NCBI GenBank assembly: GCA_022571985.1
Contig: JACZWU010000001.1
Coordinates: 467,501 to 531,500, forward strand
Source of the DNA: Candidatus Zixiibacteriota bacterium
GTDB lineage: Bacteria > Zixibacteria > MSB-5A5 > GN15 > FEB-12
Reading direction: 5' to 3'
DNA length: 64,000 bases
Of the stretch, positions 17,853 to 26,946 are shown in pieces. Under the pieces are notes generated by a model. That model searched no databases and was not told the origin of the DNA. It was given only the letters and a program-made list of their open reading frames with translations. Each line of letters starts with the position of its first letter. The first letter of the stretch is position 1. The translations under genes were made by a program, and so were the position numbers.

Positions 17853-19598
17853 ATGAAAACCAAAGATAGAACAGAACTTGACACAGGTCCGACAGAGATT
17901 TTCGCGGATTTAGAGGCTACGTTAGAACAGGTCGCCGAAACCAATCCGCGTATCAGTGACGAACCGACAGAGCCCGGTAAAAACATGCATGACCTCAGGG
18001 CGCTGCTTGAGGTATCTCTGGCAACAAATTCATCTCTCGTTTTAGACGACGTTCTTCAGATCGTAATGCACAAAGCCATCGAACTGATGAAAGCAGAACG
18101 CGGCTTGATTATGCTGCTGGATGAAAAAGGTGAACTTCAGACTCGCTGCGCTTTCAATCTTTGTAAAGAAGAAATGAATCAGGATGACTTTCAGATATCG
18201 AACTCTATTGCATACGAAGTTGCCCGGACAGGAAAATCAAAATACATTTCCGATGCCCTTTCTGACAAGAAATACGCTCAGCAAAAATCAATCATAGAGA
18301 TGCATTTGCATTCAATTATGTGCGTTCCGGTAATTATTAAAGAAAAAGTTATCGGCATTATCTATCTCGATAATTCCATAGAGACCCGGATGTTTCTCAA
18401 ATCCGACCTTTACATCTTTGAACTTTATGGTCAAATGGTCTCAAACGCGCTTCACAATGCAGAAATCTATGAGTCGTTGCTGGTGATGCAGCGCTATAAC
18501 GAATCAGTAATCGAAAAATCACCTATCGGTCTGGTTGTTTTAGACAGCAGTGGTTGTATTTCCAAAATAAACTCAGTAGCGCTGGAGATTTTAGAACTGA
18601 ATAAAAGCCAGATTAAATTCGGAGGAGACGACTCTAAAGGCACAGCTTTCCTTGACATACTGCCCGAAAAAGAGAAACCTCGCTGGCAGTTCATGATTGA
18701 AACCGTTTTGTCGAGCAACGAAGATTTCTCAGAGCCCAGATATTTCCATAATACCGGCTACGATGAAAAAGCCCTGTCTATCAAGATATCCCCTATCTCG
18801 CACCTGCCCGGCGGCGGGGATGGCATAGTCATGACTATTGAAGATACCACAGAAAAAGTTATAATGGAAAAATACGTTATCCTGTCTGAAAAGCTGGTCG
18901 CCAAAGGAGAAATGGCAGCCTCGATAGCACATGAACTTAATAACTACCTGGCTATCGCCTCCAACAATGCCGAGCTATTGTCAATGAATGTTGAAAAGAA
19001 AAGTTATGACAAAGCAAAATTTAACGCCAGTTCGATTGTCGACAATGTCTTTAAGATTAAGCGGTTCGTAGACAGCATGATGGATTTCTCAAAGCCAGAA
19101 ACAGAGTATGTCAGTTATAACATCAAGCACTTGATTGAAGATCTCCTGTTTTCTCTTCGTGTACAGCCAAGATTTAAGAGTATCAACTTCTCACTGGATA
19201 TAGCTCACGACATTCCCAATATTGAAATGGATGTAGGACAAATACAGCAGGTCTTGATGAATCTCTTAAATAACGGCGCCGATGCAACCGAAGAACGGGC
19301 GCTGGCAGAACAGAAAGCCGGCAATACCTATAAACGTGAACTGACAATTAAAGCCAACTATATCAAGGCCAGCGAAAAAATAACTTTGGAAATTTCTGAT
19401 AACGGCATTGGTATGTCAGAAGAAACAATGAAGAAGCTTTTCTCGCTGCACTTCACTACCAAGAAAAACGGTCACGGACTGGGCCTGGTGAATTGCCGGA
19501 AGATAATTGAGCAGCATCAGGGTAAGATTGTCCCCGAGTCAAAACAAGGCGAAGGTACAACATTTGCAATTAGCCTGCCCCGGCATCAGCGCAAATAA
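17853..19598 (+). CDS. GAF-PAS sensor histidine kinase
   Basis: 581 residues without membrane segments, so cytoplasmic. Residues about 50-210 form a GAF domain (DLRALLEVSLATNSSLVLDD, AERGLIMLLDEKGEL, SIMCVPVIIKEKVIGIIYLDN). A PAS domain follows at about 215-335 (NESVIEKSPIGLVVLDSSG). Then comes HisKA with the phospho-acceptor His360 (SIAHELNNYLAI), and the ATPase domain with its N box (QVLMNLLNNGADA), G1 (ISDNGIGMSEE) and G2 (HGLGLVNCRKI), plus the final GTTFAISLP strand. The layout is NtrB/AtoS-like, but no response regulator is nearby. The Ser/Thr kinase gene starts 18 bp after its stop, so the two are probably co-transcribed. The leader carries a stem-loop (17796-17827). Confidence 0.9.
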   Translation: MKTKDRTELDTGPTEIFADLEATLEQVAETNPRISDEPTEPGKNMHDLRALLEVSLATNSSLVLDDVLQIVMHKAIELMKAERGLIMLLDEKGELQTRCAFNLCKEEMNQDDFQISNSIAYEVARTGKSKYISDALSDKKYAQQKSIIEMHLHSIMCVPVIIKEKVIGIIYLDNSIETRMFLKSDLYIFELYGQMVSNALHNAEIYESLLVMQRYNESVIEKSPIGLVVLDSSGCISKINSVALEILELNKSQIKFGGDDSKGTAFLDILPEKEKPRWQFMIETVLSSNEDFSEPRYFHNTGYDEKALSIKISPISHLPGGGDGIVMTIEDTTEKVIMEKYVILSEKLVAKGEMAASIAHELNNYLAIASNNAELLSMNVEKKSYDKAKFNASSIVDNVFKIKRFVDSMMDFSKPETEYVSYNIKHLIEDLLFSLRVQPRFKSINFSLDIAHDIPNIEMDVGQIQQVLMNLLNNGADATEERALAEQKAGNTYKRELTIKANYIKASEKITLEISDNGIGMSEETMKKLFSLHFTTKKNGHGLGLVNCRKIIEQHQGKIVPESKQGEGTTFAISLPRHQRK

Positions 19599-19616: not shown

Positions 19617-22574
19617 ATGATAAAAATACCCGGGCTGACAGTTGGAAGTCAGTTGGGAGAAGGCGGAACCGCTTTAGTAGCAAGAGCATTCTCAAAACAG
19701 CTGAACCGGGATGTGGCCCTCAAATACCCTCTGGATGAGCAGGAACATTCTCTTGCCGAGTTTCAGAAAACCGCCAGTCGGGAGAATGATCTCATCAGAG
19801 AAATCCGTTTCCCGGGGATTGTACAGATTCATTCGTTTTCAAAAACTCCTCCCTATCTGCTGCTGGAACTCTGCCACGGAGAGACGCTGGACAAAATCGC
19901 CAAAGTAGATAATTTCAAAACTCTGCTCAATTTGATTTCTGCAATTTCAATTGATCTGGAATTCATGCGGGTGGTTGGATTAATTCATTGTGACCTCAAA
20001 CCAAATAATATCTTTCTCCCGGCAGACAGGTCGCTAATTAGCGGTGACAGATTATTCTTTCTAAAGTTGTCAGATTTTGGCTTAAGCAAAAATGAGTCCG
20101 AACCGGAATCTGCCAGGGTTGGCCACGGCACTATCGGCTATGCCTCACCGGAAACTCTGGCCGGCTCGACCATCTCTCATAGGTCCGACTTGTTTTCGCT
20201 GGGCGTTATTGCTTACCAGCTGACCACAGGCTTTCATCCATTTATTAATGGAGAATCAGACCCGGTCAGAATCGAAAGCCGGGTGCGCGAAGAAATCCCT
20301 CCACCCGTTTCAAATTACAGAAGTGAGCTACCGGCTCAGTTCTCAAATTTAATAGATAGGTTGTTGTCAAAAGAATTTTCAGAACGCCCGGAAACTGCCT
20401 GGTCTGTCTGTCAGGAACTCGAAAAGATCGGATGTCCGTATCCCTTTAGAAAAGCTTTGCCTCCCTCTCTCTTTGTAAAAAATAGCGACAGCTACCAGCA
20501 AGCCTTATCGTTTCTGGATTTAAATATCAGACAGACCGAATTTCTCGAAAATGTAACAGGAAAAAATAAGAACAGACTAAGGCTGATACTCAGAGCAAAC
20601 TTTGACAGAAATAATCTCAAATATAAAAGAGGCCGGTTTTCTTTCACTTCAAGAATCTATTGGCCGGCCAGACTCCGTCGGCAGACATTCAATTTTTTTT
20701 CCAATTCAAAATTCTCACTGAAAAAAGAGATAGTAGCCTCAGCCATAGCCGGCGACAGAGAATCCGGAAATAATATCCCCCCGGGGACTTCTGCCCTCTT
20801 TCAAAGTCTGTTAAGCAATGCCTTTATCAGACTAATGTCGCTAAGAGCAGCACTTGATTCAGAGTCTGAAGGATGGCCGGAACGCACAGCAAAGCTGTAT
20901 CTGAAAGCCGGCAAACTTGACAAGGCTTGCTACTATGCTCAGATATTCGCCGAAAGTGCAGTCGACGCTTATGAAATAGAAAGAAGCCTGCAGCTTATCG
21001 ACCGCCTGGTTGATTTCGCTCACTCAAGAAAAACCGAATTTGACACCATCAGACTGCAAATGATCAAAGGTGACTTTTTGAGAAACAGCGGTCTGGCAGA
21101 CGAAGCAACCGAGGCATATCAAAATATCGTGGAACTTTACCGGGACGAGCCCGAGGACAAGCTCCTGGCCGAAGTTTACCGTAATCTCGGAAGAATACAA
21201 AAATCCCGACAAGAATTTGATTCAGGCATTGAATTTCTTAATAAAGCGATGGCCATCTACAGCCGTGAAAACGACGAACTGGAAATTTCGATAACTACCA
21301 AAGATATGGGAAGTCTGTATTGTGTAGCTTCAAGACTTCCGGAGTCAATCAAGTACTACCGCCAGGCTCTGCGCATACAAAGAAAATTAAACGCTGTTTC
21401 TGACGCTTCCACGACACTCCACAATATCGGCTCTATTTACGGCATGATGGGCAGACTAAGCCGAACTGTCTGGCTGTTAAACATCTCTCTTAAGATTAAA
21501 AGGGAACTTGGAGAGCTGGGAGATATCGCCAGGACTTTGAACAATCTTGGCTACGCTCATCAGCTGAGCGGCAATTTCTCGCAGTCAGTAAATTATCTAA
21601 AAGAAGCAGTTGAGATAAATCGCCGGATAGGCAGTAAGAAAGAATTGCTTTCAAATTTATGGAATTTGTCGGAAGTCATGGTAAGAACCGGCCGCTTATC
21701 AGAGTCGGTCGAGTTCGTAAAAGAAGGCCTTGAATTAGCATCTGAGCTTAACATGAAACCACATACGGCACATTTTAAGAGCAGTATGGGAAATATTTTG
21801 TCAAGATTAGGATGCTACCACCGAGCCAAAGAGTGTTATAAGCAGACAGAAGAGCTGGTCGAAGAGATAGACGACAAAGTCCTGGAAATCCGGTTAATGA
21901 TTTACCGTGCGGAGCTGCGCTGTCAGGTTGGCGACAGTAAAGCGGCAGCAAAACTCGCCAGCAAAGCTCTAAATGATGCCCGGCAAGTAAAAGCAAAATC
22001 CGAGGAGCTCTCGGCCTTGTTGGTTTTATTAAAAACAACAGGCGAGTCAGAACATTTGAGTCAGGCACGTGTCTTAGCCAGCGAATTGAATCTGGACAGG
22101 GAAAACCTGCTGCTTGAATTCTACCATGCGCAATTTCTCCTTGATTACAATGAACCTGAAAAATCTGTCAGCTTGATACGAGAACAGTTGCAAAATATTG
22201 AAAAGCTGCGGGAAGATATCGAGCTGCCGGGGCTGATGGCTACGGCTGCTGAAATTTATCTTAAAATTGATGAACAGAGCAAAGCCGAAGCAATTTTAAA
22301 TACTGCCGGGAATATCGCACGTTCTTCCGGACTGCTTGACGAACAGGTCAGTATTCTCTCAATACTTGGCGGCATAGCTTTTGGGCAGGCCGACTATGAA
22401 AAATCTTACCAGCATTTCAAAGAAGCCTTATCGCTTTGCAAGGAGCTGGCAAAAAACCTGAAAAACTCTGATGATATTAAAAAGCTGATGAACAAGCCCA
22501 AGATCAAAAGCATGACAGATGGCATAAAATTATTGGGGCAAAAGATTGCCAAAAAAGAAAAGGCAGGCGTATGA
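19617..22574 (+). CDS. Ser/Thr protein kinase with C-terminal TPR array
   Basis: 985 residues. An N-terminal Hanks-type kinase domain (about 7-275) has the glycine loop GEGGTALVA, ATP-anchoring Lys36 (VALKYP), catalytic loop HCDLKPNN (Asp126), DFG (Asp153) and a YASPETL activation-segment end, so it should be active. A linker of about 170 residues follows, basic near 315-350. From about 450 to 960 there are TPR repeats (AEVYRNLGRIQKSRQEFDSG, TTLHNIGSIYGMMGRLS, ARTLNNLGYAHQLSGNFSQS). No membrane segment is seen. The pairing with a histidine kinase suggests cross-talk between phosphosignalling types, similar to kinase-TPR regulators of FCB bacteria and Myxococcota. The stop codon lies within the loop of a terminator hairpin serving the opposite strand. 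Confidence 0.9.
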   Translation: MIKIPGLTVGSQLGEGGTALVARAFSKQLNRDVALKYPLDEQEHSLAEFQKTASRENDLIREIRFPGIVQIHSFSKTPPYLLLELCHGETLDKIAKVDNFKTLLNLISAISIDLEFMRVVGLIHCDLKPNNIFLPADRSLISGDRLFFLKLSDFGLSKNESEPESARVGHGTIGYASPETLAGSTISHRSDLFSLGVIAYQLTTGFHPFINGESDPVRIESRVREEIPPPVSNYRSELPAQFSNLIDRLLSKEFSERPETAWSVCQELEKIGCPYPFRKALPPSLFVKNSDSYQQALSFLDLNIRQTEFLENVTGKNKNRLRLILRANFDRNNLKYKRGRFSFTSRIYWPARLRRQTFNFFSNSKFSLKKEIVASAIAGDRESGNNIPPGTSALFQSLLSNAFIRLMSLRAALDSESEGWPERTAKLYLKAGKLDKACYYAQIFAESAVDAYEIERSLQLIDRLVDFAHSRKTEFDTIRLQMIKGDFLRNSGLADEATEAYQNIVELYRDEPEDKLLAEVYRNLGRIQKSRQEFDSGIEFLNKAMAIYSRENDELEISITTKDMGSLYCVASRLPESIKYYRQALRIQRKLNAVSDASTTLHNIGSIYGMMGRLSRTVWLLNISLKIKRELGELGDIARTLNNLGYAHQLSGNFSQSVNYLKEAVEINRRIGSKKELLSNLWNLSEVMVRTGRLSESVEFVKEGLELASELNMKPHTAHFKSSMGNILSRLGCYHRAKECYKQTEELVEEIDDKVLEIRLMIYRAELRCQVGDSKAAAKLASKALNDARQVKAKSEELSALLVLLKTTGESEHLSQARVLASELNLDRENLLLEFYHAQFLLDYNEPEKSVSLIREQLQNIEKLREDIELPGLMATAAEIYLKIDEQSKAEAILNTAGNIARSSGLLDEQVSILSILGGIAFGQADYEKSYQHFKEALSLCKELAKNLKNSDDIKKLMNKPKIKSMTDGIKLLGQKIAKKEKAGV

Positions 22575-22589
22575 ACCACGCCTGCCTTT
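22549..22589 (-). terminator. Intrinsic terminator of the 23-codon minus-strand gene
   Basis: A perfect 12-bp stem (22578-22589 with 22559-22570) and 7-base loop, followed on the minus strand by TTTCTTTTTT. It lies 35 bases after the small gene's stop. The loop contains the stop codon of the convergent kinase gene. On the plus strand no T-run follows, so it should act mainly on minus-strand transcripts. Confidence 0.88.
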
Positions 22590-22623
22590 CAAGTGAACTA
22601 ATCGTTCAAAACCGAACTAGTTC

Positions 22624-22695
22624 TCAGTCAATGCTCCAGCCAATGGGGGCAATACGAGCTTCTAGAACTTCGACGGTCAATTTGTAATCAATCAT
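22624..22695 (-). CDS. 23-residue peptide gene, candidate secreted or processed peptide precursor
   Basis: The ATG at 22695 is preceded, 7 bases away, by TAAGGAGGTG (22703-22712), a 10-base perfect complement of the 16S rRNA 3' end. The peptide begins MIDYKLTVEV, continues LEARIAPIGW and ends SID. It has its own promoter (22781-22808) and a strong terminator (22549-22589), so the short frame is very likely a real, highly translated gene. An in-frame upstream ATG at 22761 would give 45 residues, but it lacks a Shine-Dalgarno and would place the perfect one inside coding sequence. The gene lies about 200 bp downstream, on the same strand, of the PqqD-like/M50/HlyD fusion. I recognise no family; a RiPP-like or signal peptide handled by that protein is inference. 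Confidence 0.72.
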   Translation of the reverse strand: MIDYKLTVEVLEARIAPIGWSID

Positions 22696-22780
22696 TGCAA
22701 ACCACCTCCTTATTAGTTCATTCTCCGCTAGTCTTTCAGCCGAAGAATAAGTTTTCGACATCCAATTACAATCTGCGGTA

Positions 22781-22808
22781 AATATAATTCTCAAATAAAT
22801 TTCGTCAA
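22781..22808 (-). promoter_or_regulatory. Promoter of the 23-codon gene
   Basis: On the minus strand, TTGACG (22808-22803), a 16-base spacer and TATATT (22786-22781). Each box matches the sigma-70 consensus at five of six positions. The predicted start near 22774 gives a leader of about 80 bases containing the perfect Shine-Dalgarno. Confidence 0.7.
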
Positions 22809-22894
22809 GAGAATTTTTTAACCTTTATTTTAATTACGATGTGATGCGAAAATAGTTGGAATGTTTCAACCGGAAAACTTTTCCGCATTGCAAC

Positions 22895-25204
22895 TCACCA
22901 CCATGACCAAAACTCGACTCTGATAAACGATGTGACCTTGCGCAATGTGAGATTATACAAAGTTCTGCGGCCAATTGCGATCTTGGCATAGCCGGTCATG
23001 CCGTTATAAAGCAAATCAGCCTCGTTTTCGGCTACAACTGAAACCATAAAAAAAGCCCGGTTATCAAGCTCAATAGCCTCTCTTGGAATGTGAACCACTT
23101 TCCCGATAAAGACTTTATTTGGGCAGGAACGTACTTTTAGCGTTACCGACATATCAAGTTCGATCAGGTGGATATCAAAATCAGAGACAGGAACCAGAAC
23201 TTCTATCTGCCGATTGTCCACAATAGACATCAGATTAGAACTTCCGGGAATAGCAGAAATCATCCCTTCAATAGGGGCAATAATTACCTGGGCTGCCAGC
23301 TGCTCTTTTAAGAACTGCAGACGGGCTTGCTGCTTGCTGATATCGGCCAGAACAACTACTTCCTCTTCAGGTCTGGGAGGGGATTTGAGCAGCGCCAGCG
23401 CTGCTTTTTTATTGGATAGCTCCGATTTGGATATTTCAAGCGAAGATTCTGCAGATTCTAACTTGGCTGTGGTTTCAAGTTTTCTAGATAGAAGCTCGTT
23501 TACGCGGTCATAATTGCGCTGAAACTGCTCTACTTTGGTTTTAGCCGCCTCCACCTGGGCAGTTGCTTCTTCAACCTGTTCTTTCTTGGGAGGTGCTCTT
23601 AGAAGCGCCAGCAGGCCTTCCAGGCGCTCTAACTCCGAATTCGCACCCAGGATATCGTTTGAGACCTGATTTGAGGTCAGCGTGGCCAGCGTATCTCCCG
23701 GTATGACAAACTGCCCGTCTTTGACTCTTGGCACCAGTTCCAATATAGCCATATCCGTTGAGGCCATCTGCAGATAGCTGGACTTGCTTTCGGGGTCGCC
23801 ACCACCGCGGTGGAGCTTGCTTTCCAAGAGCCCAAATTCATTGAGCTTTAGATTAAACTCTACGATCGGTCTAATGCTGACTTCGCCTGAGACTCTATGG
23901 GGAAACTCTATTATGAAGAAGGCGACTACAAAAATGGCCAGACCGGTTACGTACTTTAGCAGTCGCACAGGTTGTTTGAAAATATTTTTCATATAAATCA
24001 AGTGTTGGACAGTTCCGCTTAAGAGACTGCCGATATTCTTTCTTAAGCTAAAAAATAACAAAGCCGTCAGCAACAGGAATCCTGCCCCGCCATATCGGGC
24101 TATCAGAAAAGATCCGACCAGATATAGAATAAACCCGATCAAGGCTCCAGAGTATATAAGCGCCAAAAAAGCGTACCAGAAGAAGATTCTGCGCTCTCTG
24201 GTTGCTGTTTCTATTTTTTCAATCGGCCAGCCCAGAAATTTTCTCTTAAAAAGATTGCCGATATAAGCAAATGCTTTTGACCTGAGATTCGGGATATCCA
24301 GCCAGTCGGACAAAAGATAGTAGCCATCGAGTTTAATCAGCGGATTAAAATTGAACAGAAAAGTTATAAAAGTGACCAGAATTATCAGGTAGGCGATATC
24401 GTTGACAAAACTTCCAATCATTGTCACCCGCCAGACGCCGACTGCTAAAGCAAACAGAATCATTTGAAAGTACGGCCCGGCGGCTGTAACTGCTAAGCGG
24501 TGCGATTTTTTCTCAAACAGCCAGGCATCGGAAAGGTTAGAATAAAAACAGGGCTGAAAGTACATCAGCAGAAATCCAATTTCTTTGACCTCTCCCCCAA
24601 AATAGCGGCAGATAATAGCGTGCGAAAATTCGTGCAGGGTGACAATTATAAACAGTGATATTACGATTGCTATAATTGAGCCAAAATTGAAAATAGCAGA
24701 TAAGCTGAAACTAAACTGGCTCTGGTTGGCTGCAAATAAAACTACACCGGCAATTATTACCAGCGTGGCCAGAACGAACCAGAAAAGAGAGTGAAACGGA
24801 CGGTAGAGTTTTACCAGGACATTTAGCAGTTCGGTTGGGTCGAACGCTTTTAGCTTTATAAAGAGAAGTCTGGAGAAAAGTGATTCTTCTTTGTGGGTCT
24901 GATAGCTGGCGCGGGAAATCTCCTGCTCGGAACGGTTGGTTTCCAAAAAGAAAAGTTTATCAAGCTGCTCCACAAAAGCTGCTACATCTTTCGTTTGAAT
25001 ATTAAGCTGAAACTTGGATTGAAAGCCTGATGCTATTGACTCAAGCGAACTGGCACCATCAAGCTGCTCAGCCAGCCAGTATTCCGGCTCACGCAGCCTG
25101 AAAAAATTATTAGTGATAGGGTCTTTGATATTGTATACAGTCTGCCCGTCGATATCGGCTGTAGAAATAATCAAATCTGAGCGTAATTTATGGAGACGAG
25201 ACAT
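22895..25204 (-). CDS. PqqD-like / site-2 protease (M50) / HlyD-adaptor fusion membrane protein
   Basis: 769 residues. Residues about 15-90 resemble PqqD/RRE domains (NNFFRLREPEYWLAEQLDG, FVEQLDKLFFLE). Then about eight membrane segments enclose an M50 centre: zinc motif HEFSH (His191, Glu192, His195) and NPLIKLDGYY (third ligand Asp293). From about 425 there is a single membrane span, then a HlyD-type adaptor: barrel-sandwich halves flanking a long coiled coil (about 525-600, EEATAQVEAAKTKVEQFQ and LESAESSLEISKSELSN), then a beta-barrel. The architecture is like YydH-type 'peptide zinc metalloproteases' in peptide export loci, and it suggests recognition, cleavage and export of a small peptide. 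A 23-codon gene lies downstream. No radical SAM or ABC transporter gene is adjacent. Confidence 0.85.
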   Translation of the reverse strand: MSRLHKLRSDLIISTADIDGQTVYNIKDPITNNFFRLREPEYWLAEQLDGASSLESIASGFQSKFQLNIQTKDVAAFVEQLDKLFFLETNRSEQEISRASYQTHKEESLFSRLLFIKLKAFDPTELLNVLVKLYRPFHSLFWFVLATLVIIAGVVLFAANQSQFSFSLSAIFNFGSIIAIVISLFIIVTLHEFSHAIICRYFGGEVKEIGFLLMYFQPCFYSNLSDAWLFEKKSHRLAVTAAGPYFQMILFALAVGVWRVTMIGSFVNDIAYLIILVTFITFLFNFNPLIKLDGYYLLSDWLDIPNLRSKAFAYIGNLFKRKFLGWPIEKIETATRERRIFFWYAFLALIYSGALIGFILYLVGSFLIARYGGAGFLLLTALLFFSLRKNIGSLLSGTVQHLIYMKNIFKQPVRLLKYVTGLAIFVVAFFIIEFPHRVSGEVSIRPIVEFNLKLNEFGLLESKLHRGGGDPESKSSYLQMASTDMAILELVPRVKDGQFVIPGDTLATLTSNQVSNDILGANSELERLEGLLALLRAPPKKEQVEEATAQVEAAKTKVEQFQRNYDRVNELLSRKLETTAKLESAESSLEISKSELSNKKAALALLKSPPRPEEEVVVLADISKQQARLQFLKEQLAAQVIIAPIEGMISAIPGSSNLMSIVDNRQIEVLVPVSDFDIHLIELDMSVTLKVRSCPNKVFIGKVVHIPREAIELDNRAFFMVSVVAENEADLLYNGMTGYAKIAIGRRTLYNLTLRKVTSFIRVEFWSWW

Positions 25205-25311: not shown

Positions 25312-26946
25312 ATGCCATCACTGAAAAATCGCGTTAACTCTTTCATATTCACCTCTCAGAGCCAGCTTATTCTCGTTTTAATTTCAATTTTAGCCTTTTT
25401 TCGCTCGATGGACATCTACTTCGTCGGAGATGAAATTAACCATATCGAATCCGCCTGGGAGGGTTTGACCGATTTAACGCATCATTACTTTCGTCCGGTG
25501 AAAGAACTCACACTTATCATCGACAGGTTTTTCTGGGGTTACAATCACGCTGGTTATCACATGACTAATCTAATTCTTCACACTGCCAACACGCTGTTAG
25601 TATTCGTTCTGGCTACACGAATCCATTTTGAGCGTTCAGCAGCGTTTATCGCAGCGCTCCTCTTCCTATTGCATCCTATTCACAGCACTTCCGTTTACTG
25701 GATTACAGGCCGCACTGATATTTTGTGCACTCTCTTTTATCTAACCGGACTGGTTTTCTTCATTAATTACTACAAGTCCTGTAAGTTAATGACGTTACTG
25801 TTCTCGATAGGGAGTTTTCTGCTTGCTCTACTTTCGAAAGAAATGGCAATATCATTTCCTTTAGTCATTACCGCTTATGTGATGGCATTTACTTCTGATA
25901 AACGGCAAATGCTTAAACACTCAATTCGCTCAACGTGGCCTTTCTGGGCTCTTATAGTCTTATATGCCGTGTTCAGGTTGATCATTGCAGGACCAGATGT
26001 TCTGACTGGAAAAGTACACACAAACCTTGAGATTACAAATTTGATAAGGAACCTGTCAGTATTTATTGGGCTCTTGGTAATTCCCGGTGGACATATTGAA
26101 ATCAGCAACTTTCTCAAATCCAACCAACAAGTATTCACGGTCTTAACCTTCGCATGTCTTTTTATCTTGCTGTTTTTAATCAGGGTGCTACTAAAGCGAA
26201 AAGAAACATTGTTTTTGACTCTTTTCGTTCTACTCACTCTCTTGCCGGTAATTAGGTTAGCAATGCGCTGGTATTTGTACTTGCCTTCAGTCGGATTCTG
26301 CCTGTTAGTAGCTTATTCGATTTGGAAGCTCCAGAGCCAGAAGGGCAACCGGAGAAAAATCGCTTTTCTTGCCCTCACAGTAATACTTCTTACATATTCT
26401 ACCTTTCTGATCGTCGAACAAAGCCGCTGGCTAAAATCCGGTCAGATTTCAAAGCACGTAACCTATTTGATAGCCGAAAAGATGGCCACTGAAAACCTGT
26501 ATAGTTGCTTTCTATTAAGTGTCCCAGCAGAATACAAGGAAACACTTACATTGATTCACGGTCTGGAATCTCTGGTTAACCTCCGTCTTCGATCGGATTT
26601 TGGTTATACGTTACCTGCTAAGATTCTATCTGCAACATTGATTTCAGTTCGAAGTGATCAGGACGCTTCTTTTGATCAATTAGTGGAACATAGGAATGCT
26701 GCTTTCAGACTCTCGCTTAAAGATTCACCGTCATTTTTCATATTTCCCGACCAGGTTGAGATCGCGATTTATCATGTCAGACCCGAAATCGGTTCAAAGT
26801 TTTCCTACAGTACATATGATATAATAATAAGAGGCTTGAACAAGGCTGGTGAAGTGGATGAGTTAGATGTAATATTCAGCAAACCCGATAAAAGATTCTT
26901 TGAGTTGATATCAGACGACAAGATTAGATTAGAACCAATTGATTGA
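25312..26946 (+). CDS. TMTC-like GT-C membrane glycosyltransferase homologue
   Basis: 544 residues with about ten membrane spans in the first 370. The core YHMTNLILHTANTLLVF, LFLLHPIHSTSVYWITGRTDIL and LSKEMAISFPLV matches the TMTC/PMT-like proteins that in bacteria usually carry TPR repeats. Here TPRs are missing and the last 170 residues form a soluble domain (from RWLKSGQISKHVTYLI). The acidic residues expected in the first loop of GT-C enzymes are present (FVGDEINHIE). It probably transfers a sugar from a polyprenyl-linked donor on the periplasmic side, or is a non-catalytic relative. The start is supported by the promoter at 25278-25306, which would produce a leaderless transcript. Confidence 0.72.
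   Translation: MPSLKNRVNSFIFTSQSQLILVLISILAFFRSMDIYFVGDEINHIESAWEGLTDLTHHYFRPVKELTLIIDRFFWGYNHAGYHMTNLILHTANTLLVFVLATRIHFERSAAFIAALLFLLHPIHSTSVYWITGRTDILCTLFYLTGLVFFINYYKSCKLMTLLFSIGSFLLALLSKEMAISFPLVITAYVMAFTSDKRQMLKHSIRSTWPFWALIVLYAVFRLIIAGPDVLTGKVHTNLEITNLIRNLSVFIGLLVIPGGHIEISNFLKSNQQVFTVLTFACLFILLFLIRVLLKRKETLFLTLFVLLTLLPVIRLAMRWYLYLPSVGFCLLVAYSIWKLQSQKGNRRKIAFLALTVILLTYSTFLIVEQSRWLKSGQISKHVTYLIAEKMATENLYSCFLLSVPAEYKETLTLIHGLESLVNLRLRSDFGYTLPAKILSATLISVRSDQDASFDQLVEHRNAAFRLSLKDSPSFFIFPDQVEIAIYHVRPEIGSKFSYSTYDIIIRGLNKAGEVDELDVIFSKPDKRFFELISDDKIRLEPID

Follow-up and report, generated by a model that had tools for sequence, protein, structure and literature searches.

What is the role of a gene of only 23 codons that lies shortly behind the gene for a large membrane protease fusion protein, and do the two genes form a functional unit? 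This question is raised by a locus from Candidatus Zixiibacteriota, located in the 64,000-nt stretch of DNA analysed here as the window (contig JACZWU010000001.1, positions 467,501 to 531,500). The larger gene (22895..25204, minus strand) encodes a protein of 769 amino acids that combines an RRE (the leader-binding PqqD fold), an intact M50 site-2 protease and a HlyD adaptor. The small gene (22624..22695) is found on the same strand, 199 bp after the fusion stop. It reads MIDYKLTVEVLEARIAPIGWSID, which can be divided into the leader MIDYKLTVEVLEARIAP and the predicted released tail IGWSID. A first, sequence-only reading of this DNA had described the fusion protein in the same way and the small frame at about 200 bp downstream on the same strand, and both descriptions are borne out by the present analysis.

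Judged by the comparison of related genomes, the 23-codon gene is to be regarded as a real, conserved peptide precursor gene. Within 1.5 kb after 84 fusion genes we found 50 frames with the core motif and a Shine-Dalgarno sequence (SD), while none was found in 100 dinucleotide shuffles and none on the opposite strand. The leader has a pN/pS of about 0.21, and an AGGAGG-type SD precedes nearly all of the 59 peptides listed. One could argue that the frame is short and known from sequence alone, and that it merely reflects the chance conservation of an untranslated region. However, the shuffle control, the low pN/pS, the SDs and the recurrence across phyla refute this explanation in practice, and its probability is negligible. 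Neither the peptide from the window (searched against NCBIfam) nor ten of its relatives (searched against Pfam and NCBIfam) matched a curated family above the cut-off.

The expression signals of the gene, all on the minus strand, are as the sequence-only reading had given them. The SD TAAGGAGGTG (22703..22712) comprises 10 bases at a distance of 7 bases from the ATG, the promoter TTGACG-16-TATATT is located at 22781..22808, and an intrinsic terminator (22558..22590; measured at 14 pairs, -23.7 kcal/mol, z -5.0) is common to the peptide gene and the kinase gene that converges on it. All three signals are kept in three congeners, but a promoter-like site is by itself not above chance (1 found vs 1.1 expected). 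A perfect 7-bp inverted repeat, AATTCTC-N16-GAGAATT (22786..22815), overlaps the -35 and -10 regions, is largely kept in the three congeners and is possibly an operator. As a regulon marker it was rejected, with only one exact copy in the genome.

The domains of the fusion protein were assigned by profile and fold. The M50 core reaches from H191 to D293 (HEFSH ... NPLIKLDG; 24326..24634, minus strand) and is recognized by PF02163 (E 1.2e-6). The intact active site with HEFSH (residues 191-195) and Asp293, already pointed out in the sequence-only reading, belongs to a set of residues (H191, E192, H195, D293, G294) that does not vary in 20 homologues or in a set of 48 from several phyla. The periplasmic adaptor of the HlyD/MacA/EmrA type (about residues 440-748; 22961..23887, minus strand) matches HlyD_3 (PF13437, E 4e-6) and has a barrel-sandwich and alpha-hairpin fold, for which Foldseek retrieves MacA/EmrA with E down to 3e-16. 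At the sequence level PqqD is weak (PF05402, E 0.12; TIGR03859, E 0.019). Nevertheless, the predicted structure confirms a PqqD/RRE fold for the N-terminus (residues 1-95; 24920..25204, minus strand): in the AF2 model residues 1-99 adopt the order bbb-aaa (pLDDT 84, as for the full-length model), and the five best PDB matches in Foldseek are all leader-bound lasso-peptide B1 RREs, including 5v1u, 6jx3 and 5v1v (prob 1.00, E 0.003-0.008). The comparison with YydH-type proteins made in the sequence-only reading has to be revised, since the YydH/LiaK model NF058609 gives only 50 bits (cut-off 225), whereas the daptide protease model NF041824 gives 212 bits over residues 31-384 (equivalog cut-off 300). 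The closest known protease is thus the RRE-M50 protease of daptides.

The search for a conserved small frame near homologues of the fusion gene had been set beforehand as the test of the pairing, and it revealed such a frame class-wide and in other phyla. Throughout the source family and order, the fusion gene is followed downstream by a small frame that shares the core motif. The family follows the leader pattern M..Y.L..E.LE.[RK]IAP with a short tail (consensus MxxYxLxxEVLEARIAPxGxSxGGQ); L6, E9, L11, E12 and P17 do not vary among 31 representative peptides, and Y4, A16 and S21 hardly vary. Most relatives have a GLSQGGQ-like tail, compared to IGWSID here, and most zixibacterial tails consist of Ser, Gly, Gln and Asp, without Cys or Thr. 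Tandem copies occur as well, five in locus L007 and four in L008. In the genus to which these loci and L016 belong (g30), the tandem copies share the distinct tail S[RK][WY]G[AT][DE], with seven matches in genome G042.

Peptide and fusion are inherited together. Among 146 relatives, 97 possess both, 5 only the fusion, 7 only the peptide and 37 neither (P=4e-22; within the class alone P=3e-16). Some of the twelve exceptions, although not all, are incomplete MAGs, and since many of the genomes are MAGs, single absences are weak evidence. One exception, the presence of the peptide without the fusion in G029, is clear within one contig and possibly reflects a recent loss of the fusion gene; there, a CLC gene is followed by about 330 bp, the peptide and the kinase, with the fusion missing (L128, 5563-7900). 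In the congener G035 the gene order is CLC - fusion - peptide - kinase. The congeners G013 and G044 have neither peptide nor fusion, and a gap of about 20 bp lies between their CLC and kinase genes. Since both genes are gone at a clean empty site, the pair comes or goes as a unit. In family f4, about 22-24 kb separate the fusion and peptide genes.

No radical SAM or ABC gene is adjacent to the pair, in agreement with the sequence-only reading, neither an ATPase nor an outer-membrane channel adjoins it in Zixibacteria, and a conserved enzyme neighbour was found in none of the phyla examined; the neighbours are kinases, a CLC channel, an oxidoreductase and others. In many members of the source family CLC is located directly upstream of the fusion. 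In the source genus a 544-aa protein (25312-26946), for which the Pfam search gave zero families above the cut-off, sits between the two. The conserved neighbour on the other side is a Ser/Thr kinase-TPR gene (19617..22574, plus strand), convergent with the peptide gene. A GAF-PAS histidine kinase gene (17853-19598) lies upstream of it, and both form a class-wide conserved block.

According to sequence comparison, no fewer than six further phyla have this leader next to the same fusion. A contig scan detected fusions in MAGs labelled Acidobacteria, Verrucomicrobia, Eisenbacteria, Planctomycetota, Aminicenantes, Bacteroidetes and Proteobacteria. All 17 non-zixibacterial fusion-bearing genomes tested possess leader peptides, one to five each and nearly all adjacent to the fusion, with the leader L.[IV]E.LE.[RK]IAP. 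Their tails are variable and rich in Gly, Asn and Pro, and certain types recur between phyla (GTGGYDGQPGNQS..., GNPGNNNPPLNNTNNPGNEGTGGQVSTGG, GPSNNGNPGNEVSNGSSPEPSGG, DPHDGPPGQGNWGGGPGNSG..., LLGYEGQPGNQGG). In a sample of 119 Acidobacteriota genomes the leader was found in 6, all of them among the 19 with a fusion (P=8e-6), and in 149 Planctomycetota genomes in 5, all among 32 with a fusion (P=4e-4). For the remaining fusions in these two samples no partner was detected, apart from two more that looser searches gave. The leader is not confined to short peptides: in Planctomycetota it is found at the N-terminus of frames that range from several hundred to more than a thousand codons. Acidobacteriota proteins of about 95 aa with a conserved tail FTL.D.IVI share it as well (L262 478, plus; L263 877, plus; L264 1258, minus; L269 1407, minus).

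Taken together, it is probable that the pair constitutes a minimal leader-guided system for peptide processing and export. The ribosome would synthesize the 23-residue precursor, whose leader (Y.L.VE.LE.RIAP) is expected to be bound in the cytoplasm by the RRE domain of the fusion. Cleavage by the site-2 protease core would follow, most likely just after IAP, and the HlyD-type part would move the released tail (here IGWSID) across the envelope. The computed parts of this explanation are the gene family, the division into leader and tail, co-inheritance and co-loss, the RRE fold, the protease motif and the recurrence across phyla. The cut site is proposed because E-L-E-x-[RK]-I-A-P occupies the place of the daptide leader end and because protease and RRE are homologous, while the HlyD part and the alphaproteobacterial loci for giant proteins described below point to export. 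A transmembrane stretch is absent from the peptide, which is unusual for the substrate of a site-2 protease and counts against this explanation, as do the missing ATPase and outer-membrane channel beside the zixibacterial pair and the relatives that have only one of the two genes. The released tail might act as a short linear signal or as a surface or antagonistic peptide. The earlier proposals of the peptide as the substrate of the fusion protein and of a minimal processing or export pair thus fit all the evidence, and the former is strongly supported by the comparison, but both are still inferred.

Three other explanations have to be weighed against this system. The tail released by the fusion protein could be a pheromone with the convergent Ser/Thr kinase-TPR protein or the upstream GAF-PAS histidine kinase as its receptor. 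TPR receptors of RRNPP systems read short peptides, tails of 6-8 residues have the size of pheromones, and the kinase gene is convergent and within 1.5 kb of the peptide in 62 of 74 zixibacterial loci, even where the fusion is 22 kb off or on another contig. However, the kinase remains in G013 and G044, where the pair is absent, so that it was rejected as an essential partner and is probably not a member of the pair. It is also missing from the neighbourhood in nearly all other phyla with peptides and fusion. The linkage of peptide and kinase can be attributed to ancestral synteny, and such a signalling function is therefore unlikely. Even less likely is that the peptide is not cargo but a regulator of the fusion protein, as a sensed or inhibitory small protein. 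This would agree with the presence of one small gene with one partner, the very short tail in Zixibacteria and the operator-like repeat over the peptide promoter; but in the other phyla several different tails occur per locus under the same leader, as cargo would show, and the leader also heads proteins of about 95 aa and large proteins.

The strongest competitor, although still improbable, is a daptide-like RiPP, in which the fusion protein serves as maturase and undetected enzymes encoded elsewhere modify the tail before export. The relationship of the protease to that of daptides and the leader motif E-L-E-x-x-x-A-P speak in favour of it. In contrast, the missing conserved enzyme neighbour in every phylum examined, the lack of a C-terminal Thr and the scarcity of Cys and Thr in zixibacterial tails speak against it.

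The minimal leader-guided system might be one end of a much wider range. By a translated search of plasmids we found alphaproteobacterial homologues of the fusion protein that align along their whole length (HHalign prob 100, E 1.6e-81, 656 columns) and have giant genes, roughly 12 to 38 kb long, next to them. The same loci encode DUF3467, HlyD adaptors, TolC and often a SecA paralogue (PF07517, E to 1e-103). On several plasmids (L299, L300, L302, L308-L312) the order is giant gene - DUF3467 - HlyD - RRE-M50-HlyD - SecA paralogue and/or TolC, which gives the impression of a complete locus dedicated to secretion. Giants with the LEPR-XLL motif (NF012209) lie beside the fusion in Thalassospira, Pontibrevibacter, Pseudosulfitobacter and others. 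Six N-termini were readable (LHVEPIEPRILLSAD, LHLETFEPRVLLSAD, IIFDTLEPRVLLNAD, VHFEALEPRLLLSAD, VVEQLEPRLLLAAD, LMLDPMEPRVLLSAD), of which VVEQLEPRLLLAAD was read upstream of an annotated start; in Alisedimentitalea one giant start is apparently annotated too far downstream. The Azospirillum locus has no giant N-terminus of the LEPR kind at the annotated start. A 10-position matrix of the peptide leader, smoothed by hand and with columns chosen after the motif had been seen, picks the LEPR site in all six of these related sequences (shuffle P 1e-4 to 2e-3 each). With the full HMM the match is weaker (P 0.004-0.04), and only the 10-position framework is significant. The peptides are not simply members of LEPR-8K, which was rejected as their direct family: NF012209 matches neither the window peptide nor ten relatives, and among the 17 genomes from other phyla with the fusion only 2 contain it.

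That one machine is found with one type of N-terminus at both extremes of cargo size suggests a leader-dependent export route of general use. The sequences are best read as a leader-guided processing and export machine whose cargo ranges from some 6 residues up to giant proteins, with Zixibacteria having the minimal version, and the leader is probably a tag for binding, cleavage and export by the fusion protein, comparable to the N-terminal tag of the giant surface proteins in other bacteria. The chances are about even that RRE-M50-HlyD proteins represent an unrecognised Gram-negative leader-dependent secretion route, with one leader type (L.VE.LE.RI plus AP or LLxAD) serving everything from hexapeptides in Zixibacteria to giant LEPR-XLL surface proteins in Alphaproteobacteria; the Gly/Asn/Pro-rich peptides of Acidobacteria, Planctomycetota, Bacteroidota and Verrucomicrobiota would be intermediate cargo. 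If so, LEPR-XLL would be a secretion leader, and perhaps also the planctomycete extracellular motif PF07595, an N-terminal motif of the LE-x-LE-x-R type that extracellular proteins carry (the matches are weak, E 0.11 and 1.0, and only a lead). This would offer a possible function for the LEPR-XLL N-termini, a role explained by no paper found in our literature search. Moreover, a frame that family libraries do not recognise becomes a predicted family of cargo genes, present in one entire phylum and in at least six further phyla, for which the partner, the binding site and the cut site can all be tested. RRE-guided site-2 proteolysis would reach beyond modified natural products to seemingly plain peptides. 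Thalassospira, Pseudosulfitobacter and Methylosinus are cultured bacteria with homologous loci, in which the system can be tested.

The literature search gave no paper on the leader motif or on the combination of PqqD, M50 and HlyD, nor did we find a protein-family model that describes the system; a daptide preprint from 2025 does not mention HlyD. The daptides are nevertheless instructive. There, the RRE-site-2 protease MpaP removes the leader of the MpaA precursors, several short ORFs occur per locus, the leader binds an RRE, and its motif ELExMEAP ends, by the numbering used, at P(-1) (PMC10036551). The systems described here likewise combine an RRE fused to an M50 site-2 protease, although scoring below the equivalog cut-off, with several short ORFs per locus, and their peptides keep E-L-E-x-x-x-A-P with Met-Glu replaced by [RK]-[IVL]. 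Unlike in daptides, the HlyD adaptor is fused to the protease, the last residue of the tails is D, Q, G, E or another but not an invariant Thr, and neither MpaB/C/D/M genes nor an ABC transporter were found in the neighbourhoods; the last two differences led us to reject an identity with daptides. With the epipeptide system YydFGHIJ and LiaK (PMC7026026) the pair shares a short peptide plus a membrane metalloprotease, but the radical SAM epimerase and the ABC transporter were not found adjacent to it, and the fusion protein carries additional RRE and HlyD parts. The LEPR-XLL loci differ from the zixibacterial pair in their dedicated SecA paralogue and TolC, in cargo of thousands of residues and in LL-x-A-D in place of AP. 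However, they share with it a fusion protein that is homologous over its full length and the leader framework L.xE.LE.RI, which appears in the giants as h-x-[VLF]-[ED]-x-h-E-x-R-[IVL].
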